Part shown: positions 12,909 to 18,183 of the stretch, piece by piece
Numbering within the stretch: position 1 is the first letter of the stretch
Layout of the letters: each line of letters opens with the position of its first letter
NCBI GenBank assembly: GCA_024642005.1
Contig: JAHECA010000002.1
Location: 64,756 to 128,755, forward strand
Source of the DNA: Robiginitalea sp.
GTDB lineage: Bacteria; Bacteroidota; Bacteroidia; Flavobacteriales; Flavobacteriaceae
Direction: 5' to 3'
Length of the DNA stretch: 64,000 bases
The notes under the pieces: model-generated
Told to the model about the DNA's origin: nothing
Database searches by the model: none
The model's input: only the letters and a program-made list of their open reading frames with translations
Program-made: the position numbers and the translations under genes

Positions 12909-13829
12909 CTATTCTTTCGGATGGGCAACCGGGCGATCCCCTGTGAGTTCAGTAAACAGGGTTTCGAGGGTTTGGGTCTTGCGGCTCAGCTGCAGGGTCT
13001 TCAGGGAGTGGTCGTGGGCAAAGTCGAACACGGCCGGGCGCATGTCTCGCGGGGTTGAGAAGCTCAGTTCGTAGACGAATCCCCCTGTATTGCGAATATC
13101 CTCCACATGAGGGAGGCCGCGCAGCAGGGTTTCCTCAACGCGGTAATCAAATTCCACCTCGATTACCTGTTTCTCGTCTTTCCGCAGGGCTTCCAGGGTG
13201 GCATCGGCTACGAGCTTTCCCTTGTTGATGATCAGCACGCGGTCGCAGACAGCTTCCACTTCTTTCATGATGTGGGTAGAGAGCAGAATGGTCTTATTGC
13301 GCCCGATCTCCCGGATTAGCTTCCGGATCTCGATGAGCTGGTTCGGATCGAGTCCCGTGGTGGGCTCATCCAGAATGAGGACCTCCGGATCGTGCAGCAG
13401 AGCGGCAGCCAGGCCCACCCGCTGGCGATACCCCTTGGAGAGCTTTCCGATCTGTTTGCCGGCTTCCGTGCCCAGGCCAGTTTGCTCGAGAACGGCGGCA
13501 ATGCGTTCGCGGGGCACTTTGTACACCGAGGCACAGAAGGCCAGGTATTCGCGCACGTAGAGGTCGAGGTAAAGCGGGTTGTGCTCGGGCAGGTAGCCCA
13601 GGCAGCGCTGTACGGCTCCCGGGTCTTTTTCCACGTCGTACCCGCCTACTTCGGCTGTTCCGGCATCGGCCTGGTAGTAGGTGGTAAGGATTTTCATCAG
13701 GGTCGATTTACCGGCCCCGTTCGGGCCCAGAAAGCCCACGACCTCCCCTTTTTCGATCGAAAAACTAACCCCGTCCAGGGCCTTTTGTGCCCCGAAGCTT
13801 TTAGACAGCCCGGCAACGCGGATAGACAT
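12909..13829 (-). CDS. gldA: GldA-type ABC transporter ATP-binding protein
   Basis: A 306-residue ATPase component. Walker A is GPNGAGKST near residue 36, the signature region is KLSKGYRQRVGLA, and Walker B is VLILDEPTTGLDP. The YLPEHNPLY segment after the Q-loop and the C-terminal extension of about 80 residues are typical of GldA, which with GldF and GldG forms an ABC transporter required for gliding in Flavobacterium johnsoniae. gldFG are not next to it here, as is usual in the family. A generic ABC-2 exporter ATPase is the alternative. Confidence 0.88.
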   Translation of the reverse strand: MSIRVAGLSKSFGAQKALDGVSFSIEKGEVVGFLGPNGAGKSTLMKILTTYYQADAGTAEVGGYDVEKDPGAVQRCLGYLPEHNPLYLDLYVREYLAFCASVYKVPRERIAAVLEQTGLGTEAGKQIGKLSKGYRQRVGLAAALLHDPEVLILDEPTTGLDPNQLIEIRKLIREIGRNKTILLSTHIMKEVEAVCDRVLIINKGKLVADATLEALRKDEKQVIEVEFDYRVEETLLRGLPHVEDIRNTGGFVYELSFSTPRDMRPAVFDFAHDHSLKTLQLSRKTQTLETLFTELTGDRPVAHPKE

Positions 13830-14024
13830 GCTTGCAGATTTTGGGTAAAAATACGCAAACTGACCCTATCTCGAATGCTTTCCTTTCAGAGACAGGGGCC
13901 GCCTGGCCGAATACGGCGGCATGCATAATTCATAAAAATGCCTTGGTCGCAACGCCATTTTGCCAAGAAAAATTGAAATTCGCACATTTTTATAAAAAAT
14001 TATGGGCGAAAAACAGACATTCAA

Positions 14025-14032: not shown

Positions 14033-14058
14033 GCTACATTAGCCCCGATTACACGGCT

Positions 14059-14130
14059 ATGAACGCATTGTATTTTTGGAACGGCTATTATTTCTACTTC
14101 TTTTTTAAAAGAGGGACGGGACCGTTGTAG
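14059..14130 (+). CDS. Phe/Tyr-rich leader peptide of the aromatic amino acid operon
   Basis: A 23-codon open frame (ATG 14059, TAG 14128-14130). The peptide begins MNALYFWNGYYFYFFF and ends KRGTGPL. Ten of 23 residues are aromatic: five Phe, four Tyr, one Trp, with a solid aromatic block at codons 10-16. This is the composition expected of a leader that senses charged tRNA-Phe and tRNA-Tyr. It lies upstream of prephenate dehydratase, prephenate dehydrogenase and DAHP synthase genes. No Shine-Dalgarno is visible, which is common in this phylum. The last codons contain the antiterminator strand described in the next entry. Confidence 0.8.
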   Translation: MNALYFWNGYYFYFFFKRGTGPL

Positions 14131-14182
14131 CATACAATACGCGCTTATGATACTGGTCCCGTTCTGACGGGACTTTTTTTTT
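14113..14182 (+). promoter_or_regulatory. Transcription attenuator: mutually exclusive antiterminator and intrinsic terminator
   Basis: Terminator: GTCCCGT (14156-14162), loop TCTG, ACGGGAC (14167-14173), then nine T (14174-14182). Antiterminator: ACGGGACC (14116-14123), inside the last codons of the leader peptide, pairs perfectly with GGTCCCGT (14155-14162), using up the 5' arm of the terminator. The 14116-14122 and 14167-14173 strands are identical, so they compete for one partner. A ribosome stalled on the aromatic codons (14086-14106) leaves 14116-14123 free and allows read-through; one that reaches the stop codon covers it and lets the terminator form. The logic is that of enterobacterial phe and trp attenuators. 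Confidence 0.85.
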
Positions 14183-14217
14183 GGTACCCTGGCGCGCAGC
14201 CGAAAAAAATAATTTGG

Positions 14218-15048
14218 ATGAATCCTTTGAGAATAGCCATTCAGGGCGTACGAGGCTCCAACCACCACATGGTGGCCGAGTCGTATTTCGGTTCGGATAT
14301 CGAGCTGGTCGAATGCCTTTCCTTCCACAGCCTTGTAGACCGCATGCTCGACGGCACGGCCGACAAAGGGGTGATGGCCATTGAGAATTCAATTGCCGGG
14401 TCTATCATTCCGAATTACAACCTGGTTTGCGACAACAAACTGCACATTATCGGGGAACACTACCTGAGCGTGCACCACAACCTGATGGCCCTGCCCGGGC
14501 AGGAACTGGCCCGGATCAGGGAGGTGCACAGCCATCCCATGGCCCTGTTGCAGTGCAGGGAATACCTCAAAACCCAGCCGCACATCAAAATTGTGGAAGA
14601 CGTCGACACGGCCGAGACCGCAAGGCGCATCCACGAGAACGGACTAATGGAAATCGCGGCCATCGCCCCCTCCCTGGCAGCCAGCCTGTACGGGCTCGAG
14701 GTGCTGGCCCCTGAGATCCAGACCATCAAGAGCAATGCAACCCGCTTTATCATTCTGAAAACAAAGAACAAAGAAATACCCCGGGAAGAAATCAACAAGG
14801 CGTCGGTGCGCTTTATGACCGATCACAAAAGGGGCAGCCTGGCCACGGTGCTCAATGTGATGAGCGATTGCAACCTGAACCTGACCAAGATCCAGTCGTT
14901 GCCGGTGATTGAGACCCCATGGAAATATTCCTTTTTTGTAGATATCACTTTCGAGCGGTACGACCATTTTACCAAAGCCAAATCGCTGCTGCAGCTCATG
15001 ACCGAAGATTTCAGGGTGCTGGGCGAATACAAAAACGCGCGTATATGA
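14218..15048 (+). CDS. pheA: Prephenate dehydratase (monofunctional, ACT domain)
   Basis: Converts prephenate to phenylpyruvate, the committed step to phenylalanine. The 276-residue protein has the two-lobed catalytic domain (about 1-185) with the essential TRF motif at 175-177, and a C-terminal ACT domain (about 195-276). The ACT motifs are changed: GSLATVL at 206-212 replaces GALxxxL, and QSLP at 226-229 replaces the Phe-binding ESRP. Feedback by Phe may therefore differ from the E. coli enzyme. It is the first structural gene after the attenuator and its stop overlaps the next start (ATGA). Confidence 0.94.
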   Translation: MNPLRIAIQGVRGSNHHMVAESYFGSDIELVECLSFHSLVDRMLDGTADKGVMAIENSIAGSIIPNYNLVCDNKLHIIGEHYLSVHHNLMALPGQELARIREVHSHPMALLQCREYLKTQPHIKIVEDVDTAETARRIHENGLMEIAAIAPSLAASLYGLEVLAPEIQTIKSNATRFIILKTKNKEIPREEINKASVRFMTDHKRGSLATVLNVMSDCNLNLTKIQSLPVIETPWKYSFFVDITFERYDHFTKAKSLLQLMTEDFRVLGEYKNARI

Positions 15049-16235
15049 TACAGGAAGCCCATCGCCTGCAACAGGTACAGGAATACTATTTCTCACGCAA
15101 GCTGAAAGAGGTGCGGGGCCTGGTGGCCGGGGGCCGCCCGGTTATCAATATGGGGATTGGAAGCCCCGATCTGGCTCCTGCCCCTGAAGTACTGCAAACC
15201 TTGCAGGACGCTGTGCGCGACGCCGGGGCCCACCAGTACCAGAGCTACCAGGGGCTGCCTGAGCTGCGGCAGACCATCGCCGCCTTTTATGCAAAGAAAT
15301 TTGGGGTGGAACTCGACCCCGAGGGTGAAATTCTGCCACTGATGGGCTCCAAGGAAGGCATCATGCACATCAGTATGGCCTTCCTGAACCCGGGCGACCG
15401 GGTACTCATCCCCGACCCGGGCTACCCGACCTATGCCTCGGTGACCCACCTGGCCGGAGCCGTGCCCCTCTACTACCCGCTCAGCGAGGAAAACGGCTGG
15501 TTTCCCGACCTCGAGGCCCTGGCGGCGGCAGACCTGAGCGGGGTGAAGCTCATGTGGGTGAGCTACCCGCATATGCCTACCGGGGCTCAGGCTTCCCCGG
15601 CCCAATTACAGGCACTGGTCAATTTTGCTCGGGAGCACCAAATTTTGCTGGTAAACGACAACCCGTACAGCTTTGTGCTGAGCCGCGAGCCCCGGAGCAT
15701 CCTGATGAGCGAAGGCGCCGGCGGGCATGTGCTGGAGCTTAATTCCCTGAGCAAAACCTTCAATATGGCTGGTTGGCGCGTAGGCATGGTCCTGGGTGCG
15801 GCCCCGCTGATTACCTCGGTGCTCAAGGTCAAAAGCAATATGGATTCAGGCATGTTTTACGGTATACAGAAGGGAGCCATTGCCGCCCTGAAAAGCGGCC
15901 CCCAATGGTTTGAAGGCCTCGATGCCGTATACCGGCGCCGGCGCCAGGCCGTTTTCCAGCTGGCAGACTTGCTGGGGTGTACCTACGACCCGCAGGCAGT
16001 GGGCATGTTCGTCTGGGCACGCCTGCCCGAAGGCAGCGCCGACAGTGAAAGCTATATCGACAGCCTGCTGTACGAAAAAGACATCTTTGTGGCGCCCGGC
16101 ACCATATTTGGCAGCCGGGGGGCGGGGTACATCCGTTTTTCCCTCTGCGTGCCCGAAGAAAAAATCCGGGAAGCCATCTTGCGGGTTGCTCCGTCCGAAG
16201 TGAAGCAGGAAACCTCCCAAAAATCGGAGTCATGA
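15045..16235 (+). CDS. Class I/II aminotransferase, probable aromatic or aspartate-type
   Basis: A 396-residue PLP enzyme of fold type I. The cofactor lysine lies in NSLSKTFNMAGWRVG, and the usual NP dyad region appears as NDNPYSFVLS. In this operon the natural job is transamination of phenylpyruvate and 4-hydroxyphenylpyruvate to Phe and Tyr; related enzymes also use aspartate or LL-diaminopimelate, so exact specificity is open. The ATG at 15045 overlaps the pheA stop, and the stop overlaps tyrA (ATGA), so it is translationally coupled on both sides. Confidence 0.9.
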   Translation: MIQEAHRLQQVQEYYFSRKLKEVRGLVAGGRPVINMGIGSPDLAPAPEVLQTLQDAVRDAGAHQYQSYQGLPELRQTIAAFYAKKFGVELDPEGEILPLMGSKEGIMHISMAFLNPGDRVLIPDPGYPTYASVTHLAGAVPLYYPLSEENGWFPDLEALAAADLSGVKLMWVSYPHMPTGAQASPAQLQALVNFAREHQILLVNDNPYSFVLSREPRSILMSEGAGGHVLELNSLSKTFNMAGWRVGMVLGAAPLITSVLKVKSNMDSGMFYGIQKGAIAALKSGPQWFEGLDAVYRRRRQAVFQLADLLGCTYDPQAVGMFVWARLPEGSADSESYIDSLLYEKDIFVAPGTIFGSRGAGYIRFSLCVPEEKIREAILRVAPSEVKQETSQKSES

Positions 16236-17092
16236 AAGTAGTTGTTATCGGCATCGGCCTGATCGGCGGCTCGCTCGCCAAAGACCTGCGTAAGGCCTAC
16301 CCCGGGGTTTCCCTTTTGGGCCAGGACGTCAATTCGGGCCACCTCCAGCAGGCCACTGATCTGGGCCTGGTAGATGGGCCGGCTGCCGCGGCAGACCTGG
16401 CTGAAGCCGACCTGGTAGTGGTGAGCATCCCGGTCGACAGCCTGCTGCGCGACCTGCCACGGGTGCTCGATCAGGTAGGCGACCAGACCCTGGTAATCGA
16501 CGCGGGTTCGACCAAGGTACCGGTGTGCCGGCAGGTGAAAGACCACCCGAAACGCCGGAATTACCTGGCCTGTCACCCTATAGCTGGTACCGAATTCACA
16601 GGTCCGTCTGCTGCGGTAACTGGCCTTTTTGCCGGGAAGGTGAATATTATCTGTGAAGTGGAGCAGACAGCCTTCAAGATTCAGGAACGGGCCCTGGAGC
16701 TATTCAGCCGTATCGGCATGCGCATCCGCTATATGAACCCCGATGCCCACGACCGACACATCGCCTATGTTTCGCACCTGTCGCACATCAGCTCGTTCAT
16801 GCTCGGCAAGACCGTGATTGAAAAGGAAAAGAACGAGCGCGACATCTTCGACATGGCGGGCAGCGGGTTCGAAAGCACAGTGCGCCTGGCCAAGAGCTCC
16901 CCGGCCATGTGGACGCCGATTTTTGAGCAGAACAAGGAAAACGTGCTGGAAACCCTCGACGAGTACATCGCGAACCTCCAGGAGTTCCGTACCAAGCTGC
17001 AGGCCGATGACTACCAGGCCCTCTTTGAGGAAATGGACAATACAAACCGCATCAAAGACATTTTAAAAGGAATACCATCTCACAAAAATTGA
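16232..17092 (+). CDS. tyrA: Prephenate dehydrogenase
   Basis: Oxidatively decarboxylates prephenate to 4-hydroxyphenylpyruvate, the tyrosine branch. The 286-residue protein has an N-terminal Rossmann motif (VIGIGLIGGSLA, residues 3-14) and the substrate-binding His segment ACHPIAGTEFTGPSAA, followed by the helical dimerisation domain. There is no chorismate mutase or ACT domain, which fits mutase activity being supplied by the next gene. The start overlaps the aminotransferase stop by four bases. Confidence 0.94.
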   Translation: MKVVVIGIGLIGGSLAKDLRKAYPGVSLLGQDVNSGHLQQATDLGLVDGPAAAADLAEADLVVVSIPVDSLLRDLPRVLDQVGDQTLVIDAGSTKVPVCRQVKDHPKRRNYLACHPIAGTEFTGPSAAVTGLFAGKVNIICEVEQTAFKIQERALELFSRIGMRIRYMNPDAHDRHIAYVSHLSHISSFMLGKTVIEKEKNERDIFDMAGSGFESTVRLAKSSPAMWTPIFEQNKENVLETLDEYIANLQEFRTKLQADDYQALFEEMDNTNRIKDILKGIPSHKN

Positions 17093-17100
17093 ATACCCCT

Positions 17101-18183
17101 ATGGAAAATAAGAGAGAATTGCGCAAGTGGCTCGACGACATGGCCCTGCCGCACCCCCTGGTAATCGCAGGGCCCTGCAGTGCCGAGACCGAGGAGCAGG
17201 TGATGGCCATCGCCCACCAGCTTAAAGGTACCGACGTGAATTACTACCGGGCCGGTATCTGGAAGCCCCGCACCCGCCCCGGGAATTTTGAAGGGGTTGG
17301 GGCCATCGGCCTCAAATGGCTCCAGAAAGTAAAACAGGAAACGGGGCTGAAAACGGCAACCGAGGTGGCCAACAGGGCACATGTAGACCTGGCCCTGGAG
17401 CACGATATAGACCTGCTCTGGATTGGGGCCCGTTCTACGGTTAGCCCCTTTATCGTGCAGGAAATTGCCGACGCCCTGGCGGGGACCGACAAGGTGGTGC
17501 TTGTCAAAAACCCGGTAAACCCCGACCTGTCGCTCTGGTTGGGAGCCATAGAGCGCCTTTATTCGTCCAACATCAGGAAGCTGGGGGTAATCCACCGCGG
17601 TTTTTCCACATACGAGAAATCAAAATACCGCAACATCCCCGAGTGGCAGCTGGCCATTGAATTGCAGTCGCGCTTTCCCGACCTGCCCCTGATAAACGAC
17701 CCGTCCCACATCAGCGGGCGCCGCGACCTGATTTTCGACGTATCCCAGACCGCCCTCGATCTGAATTTCGACGGCCTTATGATTGAAACGCACACCGACC
17801 CCGACAACGCCTGGAGCGATGCCGCCCAACAGGTAACCCCGACCCGCCTGGTGCAGATTATGAAAGACCTGCGCATCAGGAAGGAAACCGATGAGGAAGC
17901 CGAATACAACAACAAACTCAGTAACCTGCGGGCCCAGATAGACGTAATCGACAACCAGCTGATCGATATGCTGGGACGGCGTATGAAGGTGTCAGACGAC
18001 ATAGGTGCCCTTAAGAAATCACGCAACGTGGCGGTGCTCCAAACCGGCCGCTGGAACGCCATATTGGGCAGCATGATTTTGGAAGGGGAGAGCCGCGGCC
18101 TGAGCGAGGAATTTGTGCTGAAGCTGTTCAAGGCCATTCACCAGGAATCGATCAACCACCAGGAAAAGGTCATCAATTCATAG
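17101..18183 (+). CDS. Bifunctional DAHP synthase / chorismate mutase (AroQ type)
   Basis: A 360-residue fusion. Residues about 1-265 are a compact class I beta-type DAHP synthase (entry step of the shikimate pathway; GPCSAETEEQ near the start, KPRTRPGNFEG and DPSHISGRR as active-site segments). Residues about 275-360 are an AroQ chorismate mutase helix bundle (LRAQIDVIDNQLIDMLGRR). One protein thus holds the first pathway step and the branch to prephenate. The ATG at 17101 is preferred; an in-frame TTG at 17089 overlaps the tyrA stop and would add four residues. It ends the attenuator-controlled operon. Confidence 0.94.
   Translation: MENKRELRKWLDDMALPHPLVIAGPCSAETEEQVMAIAHQLKGTDVNYYRAGIWKPRTRPGNFEGVGAIGLKWLQKVKQETGLKTATEVANRAHVDLALEHDIDLLWIGARSTVSPFIVQEIADALAGTDKVVLVKNPVNPDLSLWLGAIERLYSSNIRKLGVIHRGFSTYEKSKYRNIPEWQLAIELQSRFPDLPLINDPSHISGRRDLIFDVSQTALDLNFDGLMIETHTDPDNAWSDAAQQVTPTRLVQIMKDLRIRKETDEEAEYNNKLSNLRAQIDVIDNQLIDMLGRRMKVSDDIGALKKSRNVAVLQTGRWNAILGSMILEGESRGLSEEFVLKLFKAIHQESINHQEKVINS

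Follow-up and report, generated by a model that had tools for sequence, protein, structure and literature searches.

A probable Phe/Tyr-sensing attenuator with a mixed leader peptide before the pheA operon of Robiginitalea sp. and its relatives

Our analysis of a 64,000-nucleotide stretch of DNA from Robiginitalea sp. (here called the window) indicates that the pheA operon is very probably preceded by a ribosome-mediated transcription attenuator of the classical type, with joint sensing of Phe and Tyr. From the layout of the sequence we infer that the response would be to charged tRNA. The region harbors a leader ORF with clustered control codons, an intrinsic terminator before the first gene, and an antiterminator that uses the 5' arm of the terminator; the further element, a 1:2 hairpin with the control codons in strand 1, comes from prediction and its controls. 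An earlier note on this DNA had proposed attenuation of the type found at enterobacterial pheA, trp and his. This proposal is supported by leaders and terminators at 125 of 130 loci in the family, by covariation of the terminator, and by an antiterminator that tracks the terminator. The mechanism is classical, ordinary in kind, and widely kept among relatives. The leader, the terminator and the operon all lie on the plus strand of the window.

The leader ORF (14059..14130) was read directly, with its ATG at position 14059 and a TAG stop codon at 14128-14130. It encodes the peptide MNALYFWNGYYFYFFFKRGTGPL, and a recount gave five Phe, four Tyr and one Trp among its 23 codons, as the earlier note had it. 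An aromatic-rich leader stands at the same place in 125 of 130 family loci. The densest ten-codon stretch contains eight aromatic codons, and in a chance check on all 499 ATG ORFs of 15 to 40 codons on both strands of the window, this ORF was the sole one with at least six aromatic codons in any ten. An in-frame ATG at 14002, giving 42 codons, was rejected as the start because it lies upstream of a -7-like box at 14035-14042 and because the leaders of the nearest relatives (L002-L013), mostly of 23 codons, align with 14059. The box itself, TACATTAG (14035..14042), is a candidate -7 promoter box located 16 nt 5' of the leader ATG, and has one mismatch to TAnnTTTG, the -7 consensus named in the text of PMC9723704. 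Of the 125 family leaders, 116 have a relaxed TAnnTT[T/A]G box no more than 45 nt 5' of their ATG, versus 3 matches in a control stretch 60-105 nt upstream of the ATG. The gene 5' of the leader encodes an ABC transporter ATP-binding protein (12909-13829, by Pfam) and points in the opposite direction, so that the leader is the sole annotated gene before the terminator.

Downstream of the leader are pheA, encoding prephenate dehydratase (14218..15048; PF00800, E value of 1.5e-57, with a weak ACT match, PF01842, below the cut-off), a class I/II aminotransferase gene (15045..16235; PF00155, start inferred from the frame), tyrA, encoding prephenate dehydrogenase (16232..17092; PF02153 and PF20463), and a gene for DAHP synthase fused to type II chorismate mutase (DAHPS/CM; 17089..18183; PF00793 and PF01817, start codon uncertain). 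As these genes overlap by a few bases, they probably form a single operon, and by their Pfam identities this operon makes both Phe and Tyr. The stop codon of the leader is separated from the pheA ATG by 87 nt. This distance bears on the alternative that the leader acts at translation, with PheA synthesis set by translation of the leader and re-initiation, or by folding. Short leader ORFs near structural genes are common and have been proposed as re-initiation aids, as stated in PMC4833913, but the same paper gives a Bacteroidetes spacing peak of 11-14 bp, and the gap seen here holds a covarying terminator and nine T. We consider regulation at translation very unlikely.

The terminator occupies 14155-14182. 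Its 5' arm, GGTCCCGT (14155..14162, strand 3), is common to the antiterminator and the terminator and pairs with the 3' arm (14167..14174, strand 4), the outermost pair being G-U; the 3' arm was read directly and is supported by covariation. A run of nine T follows (14174..14182, also read directly), which is the expected 3' end of a short terminated RNA. The strand ACGGGACC (14116..14123), which forms the latter part of strand 2 and lies within the last leader codons, is fully complementary to GGTCCCGT. Both stems had been described in the earlier note, the terminator hairpin with its nine T and the antiterminator strand pairing with the terminator 5' arm from within the last codons, and both descriptions agree with our reading in coordinates and counts. 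Pairing is possible in the sequence between strands 1 and 2, strands 2 and 3, and strands 3 and 4.

The fold of 14040-14190 (151 nt) was better than those of 200 of 200 dinucleotide shuffles (z of -3.38). In the window the antiterminator state, at -16.0 kcal/mol, is slightly better than the terminator state, at -14.9 kcal/mol. This makes it one of 9 exceptions, as the terminator state is the more stable one in 116 of 125 leaders (median of 3.4 kcal/mol). Because the terminator state is more stable in most leaders, antitermination would rest on the order of synthesis, and such reliance is usual for ribosome-mediated attenuation. A 5' element that is structured and conserved could also be a ligand- or tRNA-binding RNA (a riboswitch or a T-box), in which case the aromatic-rich frame would be a by-product. 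A search with Rfam release 15, covering T-box elements, amino-acid leaders and others, gave no match at the gathering score in the 64,000 bases of the window. Moreover, the aromatic codons persist as the sequence diverges, and their spacing to the antiterminator is tight. A binding RNA of this kind is therefore most improbable.

The probable Phe/Tyr attenuator is widespread in the family. A search of 149 genomes of this family, taken to be Flavobacteriaceae from the named loci with the closest PheA, gave PheA in 130, and the upstream DNA was taken for all 130. A simple search detected the terminator in 118 and an aromatic-rich ORF in 125 of these loci, and a refined search detected both leader and terminator before pheA in 125. 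At one further locus (L129) a contig end cuts the region, and aromatic codons and the terminator are still visible. The leader was not found within 500 nt upstream of pheA in L073, L091 and L111, or within 310 nt in L126. By eye, the DNA upstream of pheA in L073 and L111 contains repeated stretches. In L021 the leader and terminator are kept, yet 332 nt of other DNA separates the T run from pheA. In a named set of 80 loci (Robiginitalea, Muriicola, Maribacter, Arenibacter, Flagellimonas and others), which partly overlaps the 130-locus set, 78 have the leader, and every one of these also has a terminator and antiterminator pairing at -7 kcal/mol or better; the other two have either 87 nt of upstream sequence (L224) or a contig that starts inside pheA (L275). 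Absence of the leader, or of covarying stems, in relatives was the refuting result named in the earlier note, and the comparison gave the reverse, with leader and terminator in 125 of 130 loci, a covarying terminator, and an antiterminator that follows it, the latter with a weaker signal on a plain alignment.

Outside the family, at 41 loci that are mostly those with the most similar PheA, at least six aromatic codons in ten were present upstream of pheA in 30, against 2 when the opposite strand was read. Among the 11 remaining loci, three (L145, L147 and L148) had five aromatic codons. Four genomes from outside the class (L166, L168, L177 and L181) encode an unusually similar PheA (44-45%) with a Phe/Tyr-rich ORF upstream, and transfer of the operon together with its leader is possible in these cases.

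Covariation of the terminator was examined in an alignment of 59 of the 125 leader sequences. In it, 93.7% of the cells are paired, changes on both sides occur at 7 of 7 pairs, and the number of cells with such double changes is 44 versus 10.6 in shuffles. The antiterminator gives a weaker signal on the plain MAFFT alignment, with 62.1% of the cells paired (67.9%, slightly better, when slid by one column), both-side changes at 6 pairs versus 6.0 in shuffles, and 29 such cells versus 19.9. This seems to arise from groups that are out of register. When each sequence is anchored individually, the terminator core exists in 13 versions over the family, and the antiterminator follows it: the usual partner is CGAGAC or CGAGGC for GTCTCG and CGGGAC for GTCCCG, and ACCCGG occurs with CCGGGT or CCGGGG. 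With the best hexamer chosen, six of six standard pairs are formed in the antiterminator core of 94 leaders, five in 30 and four in 1, and all six are Watson-Crick pairs in 53 of 125. A leader's own core pairs better than a foreign one in 1258 of 1500 comparisons, equally well in 190 and worse in 52. Over the whole arm, the mean energy of the antiterminator duplex is -10.8 for own partners, -8.0 for swapped partners and -4.7 for shuffled ones, and the own duplex beats the swapped one in 3504 of 4788 swaps.

The position of the core relative to the codons is also constrained. In 99 of 125 leaders, 10-11 nt separate the last aromatic codon from the antiterminator core, with a range of 6-14 overall. 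A stalled ribosome, with the codon in its A site, should extend about 10 nt past that codon (the toeprint rule), and the core would thus be free just ahead of a ribosome stalled at the last aromatic codon. Relative to the end of the stop codon, the core ends 7-22 nt before in 105 leaders, 4 nt before in 8, and 3-10 nt past it in 12, so a ribosome at the stop codon should cover the core in most leaders. As far as spacing goes, a stall would free strand 2, and a ribosome at the stop codon would hide it. This geometry suggests that sensing is probably done by the final six or seven aromatics, Tyr10, Tyr11, Phe12, Tyr13, Phe14, Phe15 and Phe16, at 14086..14106.

Pairing controls suggest that part of this run of codons also serves as strand 1 of a predicted 1:2 hairpin, which the earlier note had overlooked. 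The first part of strand 2 would be a purine-rich linker, AAAAGAGGG (14107..14115). Over the family, purines make up 86% on average of the linker that joins the aromatic codons to the antiterminator core, compared with 48% of the 10 nt past the core. The aromatic block and linker fold better than the shuffle mean in 123 of 125 leaders. Because pyrimidines followed by purines give a good fold whatever the order of the letters, stricter controls were used. The energy of the hairpin is below that of within-block shuffles in 107 of 125 leaders. When third letters are permuted among the Phe/Tyr codons, so that neither the peptide nor the composition changes, the own energy is lower than the synonymous permutations in 103 of 125 leaders and higher in 21. 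With linkers swapped between genomes, the own linker is lower than the swap mean in 90 of 125 leaders, and pairwise it is lower in 2526 swaps, higher in 1149 and equal in 75; the genomes of relatives are not independent, and all tests in this study, the p-values of the hairpin controls included, take no account of kinship.

Individual positions were also counted. In the third-last codon of the block, C is the third letter in 81% of leaders, whereas the nine further positions counted have C in 6-32%; this letter is paired to G in 95 of 125 folds. In the fourth-last codon, the second letter is a T (Phe) paired to A or G in 31 folds, an A (Tyr) paired to T in another 31, and unpaired in 62, all of these being minimum-energy folds and so biased toward pairing. 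The controls indicate that the control codons look like strand 1 of a classical pause/protector hairpin. The view that there is no 1:2 hairpin was dropped, given the purine bias of the linker and the shuffle, synonymous and swap controls.

Taken together, these elements lead us to propose the following course of events. With both Phe-tRNA and Tyr-tRNA charged, a translating ribosome would reach the stop codon and cover strand 2, and the 3:4 terminator would form. When either Phe or Tyr is short, the ribosome would stop within the final six or seven aromatic codons. A ribosome stopped on a late aromatic codon would open the 1:2 hairpin and leave strand 2 free just ahead, which would take strand 3 before strand 4 is made, and pheA, the aminotransferase gene, tyrA and the DAHPS/CM gene would be transcribed. 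If the leader is not translated, the 1:2 hairpin would favor termination. A stall far upstream, for example at the Trp codon at 14077-14079, would leave strands 1 and 2 able to pair and should have little effect.

Over the 125 leaders the average content is 5.32 Phe, 3.54 Tyr and 0.69 Trp codons, with ranges of 3-9 for Phe and 2-6 for Tyr. In the five positions that end with the last aromatic codon, the most frequent residues are, in reading order, Phe (74%), Tyr (71%), Phe (82%), Phe (82%) and Phe (84%). The presence of Trp codons raises the possibility that all three aromatic amino acids are sensed, since DAHP synthase feeds all three; this would be a variant of the Phe/Tyr reading, with overlapping odds. 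A Trp codon is present in 85 of 125 leaders, this trait changes at least 22 times on a PheA tree of 123 leaders (L063 and L085 left out), and 45 of 86 Trp codons (in 45 leaders) lie at -4 or -5 from the last aromatic, where they could count. However, 40 of 125 leaders lack a Trp codon, Trp7 in the window lies at -9 from the last aromatic codon and is probably out of range, and the trp operon of the same genome has a WWW leader of its own. We regard sensing of all three as rather unlikely, and for the window leader, Trp as an equal partner is unsupported at position -9.

Further leaders with terminators, for trp and his, are present in the same genome. In a set made up of the 30 best-scoring PF04715 loci and that of the own genome, a WWW leader precedes the PF04715 (TrpE-type) gene at 28 of 31 loci (29 of 31 with a slightly different search), and the leader in the own genome implies that Trp seems to have its own sensor there. 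Many of the family's trp leaders (L220, G000:C32:28702-32639; L189-L218) carry TCGTGA at or near their end; its complement, TCACGA, falls within the loop and 3' arm of a strongly conserved terminator. The longest Watson-Crick match with the terminator is 6-8 nt in 22 of the 28 leaders that have one, a count made without a chance control. The trp antiterminator may start from the terminator loop, unlike that of pheA. The his leader of the same genome, before hisG (L219, G000:C5), is MKLNHTHHHFDSCAQAR; it has four His codons and a terminator, and its antiterminator duplex comes to -11.5 kcal/mol.

The content of the pheA operon varies among relatives. Among 98 family loci with at least 4.2 kb past the pheA start, 85 harbor the aminotransferase, tyrA and DAHPS/CM genes, ten have DAHPS/CM without the aminotransferase and tyrA (L095 and L116-L124; gene order read in four), two lack tyrA alone, and one lacks all three. 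Leaders of the ten operons without aminotransferase and tyrA average 2.3 Tyr codons, versus 3.87 in 83 others, and all ten have a Trp codon. The difference in Tyr codons reflects only two changes on the tree, too few to establish that leaders track operon content. With the own TyrA protein as query, no match was found in the ten genomes, in a search without a positive control. PF02153 was over the cut-off in none of the ten, one of which (G112) is only 64% complete, although two of them had weak matches below it; all 4 comparison genomes matched. A PF00351 hydroxylase, which could make Tyr from Phe in these genomes, is present in eight of the ten and likewise in 4 of 4 comparison genomes. We put forward a broader idea tentatively, with somewhat less than even confidence: mixed attenuators of this kind may be widespread in the Bacteroidota, with the order of the last codons (consensus Phe Tyr Phe Phe Phe, the final one lying 10-11 nt 5' of the antiterminator) weighting the sensing, synonymous choice tuned to the 1:2 hairpin, and codon make-up shifting with operon content.

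Enterobacterial pheA (pheL), trp and his leaders carry their control codons in strand 1 and follow a 1:2/2:3/3:4 logic. The leader described here resembles them in its ORF, in control codons located in strand 1, and in the same pairing logic. It differs from them in mixing Phe and Tyr codons, in having strand 2 inside the ORF, in preceding pheA, tyrA and DAHP synthase together, and in its Bacteroidota-like promoter box. The earlier note had called a mixed Phe and Tyr sensor less usual, but mixed leaders are not unusual in principle, as thr and ilv leaders contain several kinds of control codon. As in those cases, a single leader here would answer to several products of its operon, although the amino acids, the pathway and the phylum are different. 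A comparative survey of attenuation from 2010 by Lopatovskaya, Seliverstov and Lyubetsky, cited in PMC4833913, may already cover part of these findings.

Within the Bacteroidota, the text of PMC9723704 reports a mapped transcriptome of Flavobacterium psychrophilum with strong indications that amino-acid operons are attenuated through leader peptides, and states that these bacteria lack Shine-Dalgarno sequences. It also describes a structured element 5' of pheA, conserved in other genera of Flavobacteriaceae and without an Rfam match. The gene is the same as here, so that a 5' element at pheA is in itself not new. That text describes neither a peptide nor stems nor covariation, although the supplements of the paper (Table S7, SI Appendix D9) may do so. 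Small ORFs reminiscent of leader peptides are mentioned for Bacteroides thetaiotaomicron in PMC7366714. In the literature searched, we found no account of the anatomy, covariation, 1:2 hairpin or breadth of this attenuator.

All strands are described here, including a predicted 1:2 hairpin formed by the sensing codons. The leader alignment could seed an RNA-family model, and an RNA-family entry would be worthwhile. The 125 leaders, with two lineages that lack tyrA in the operon, form a natural series for how a mixed sensor weights two amino acids. Our results provide family-wide sequence evidence that points to classical attenuation acting on the combined Phe/Tyr pathway.
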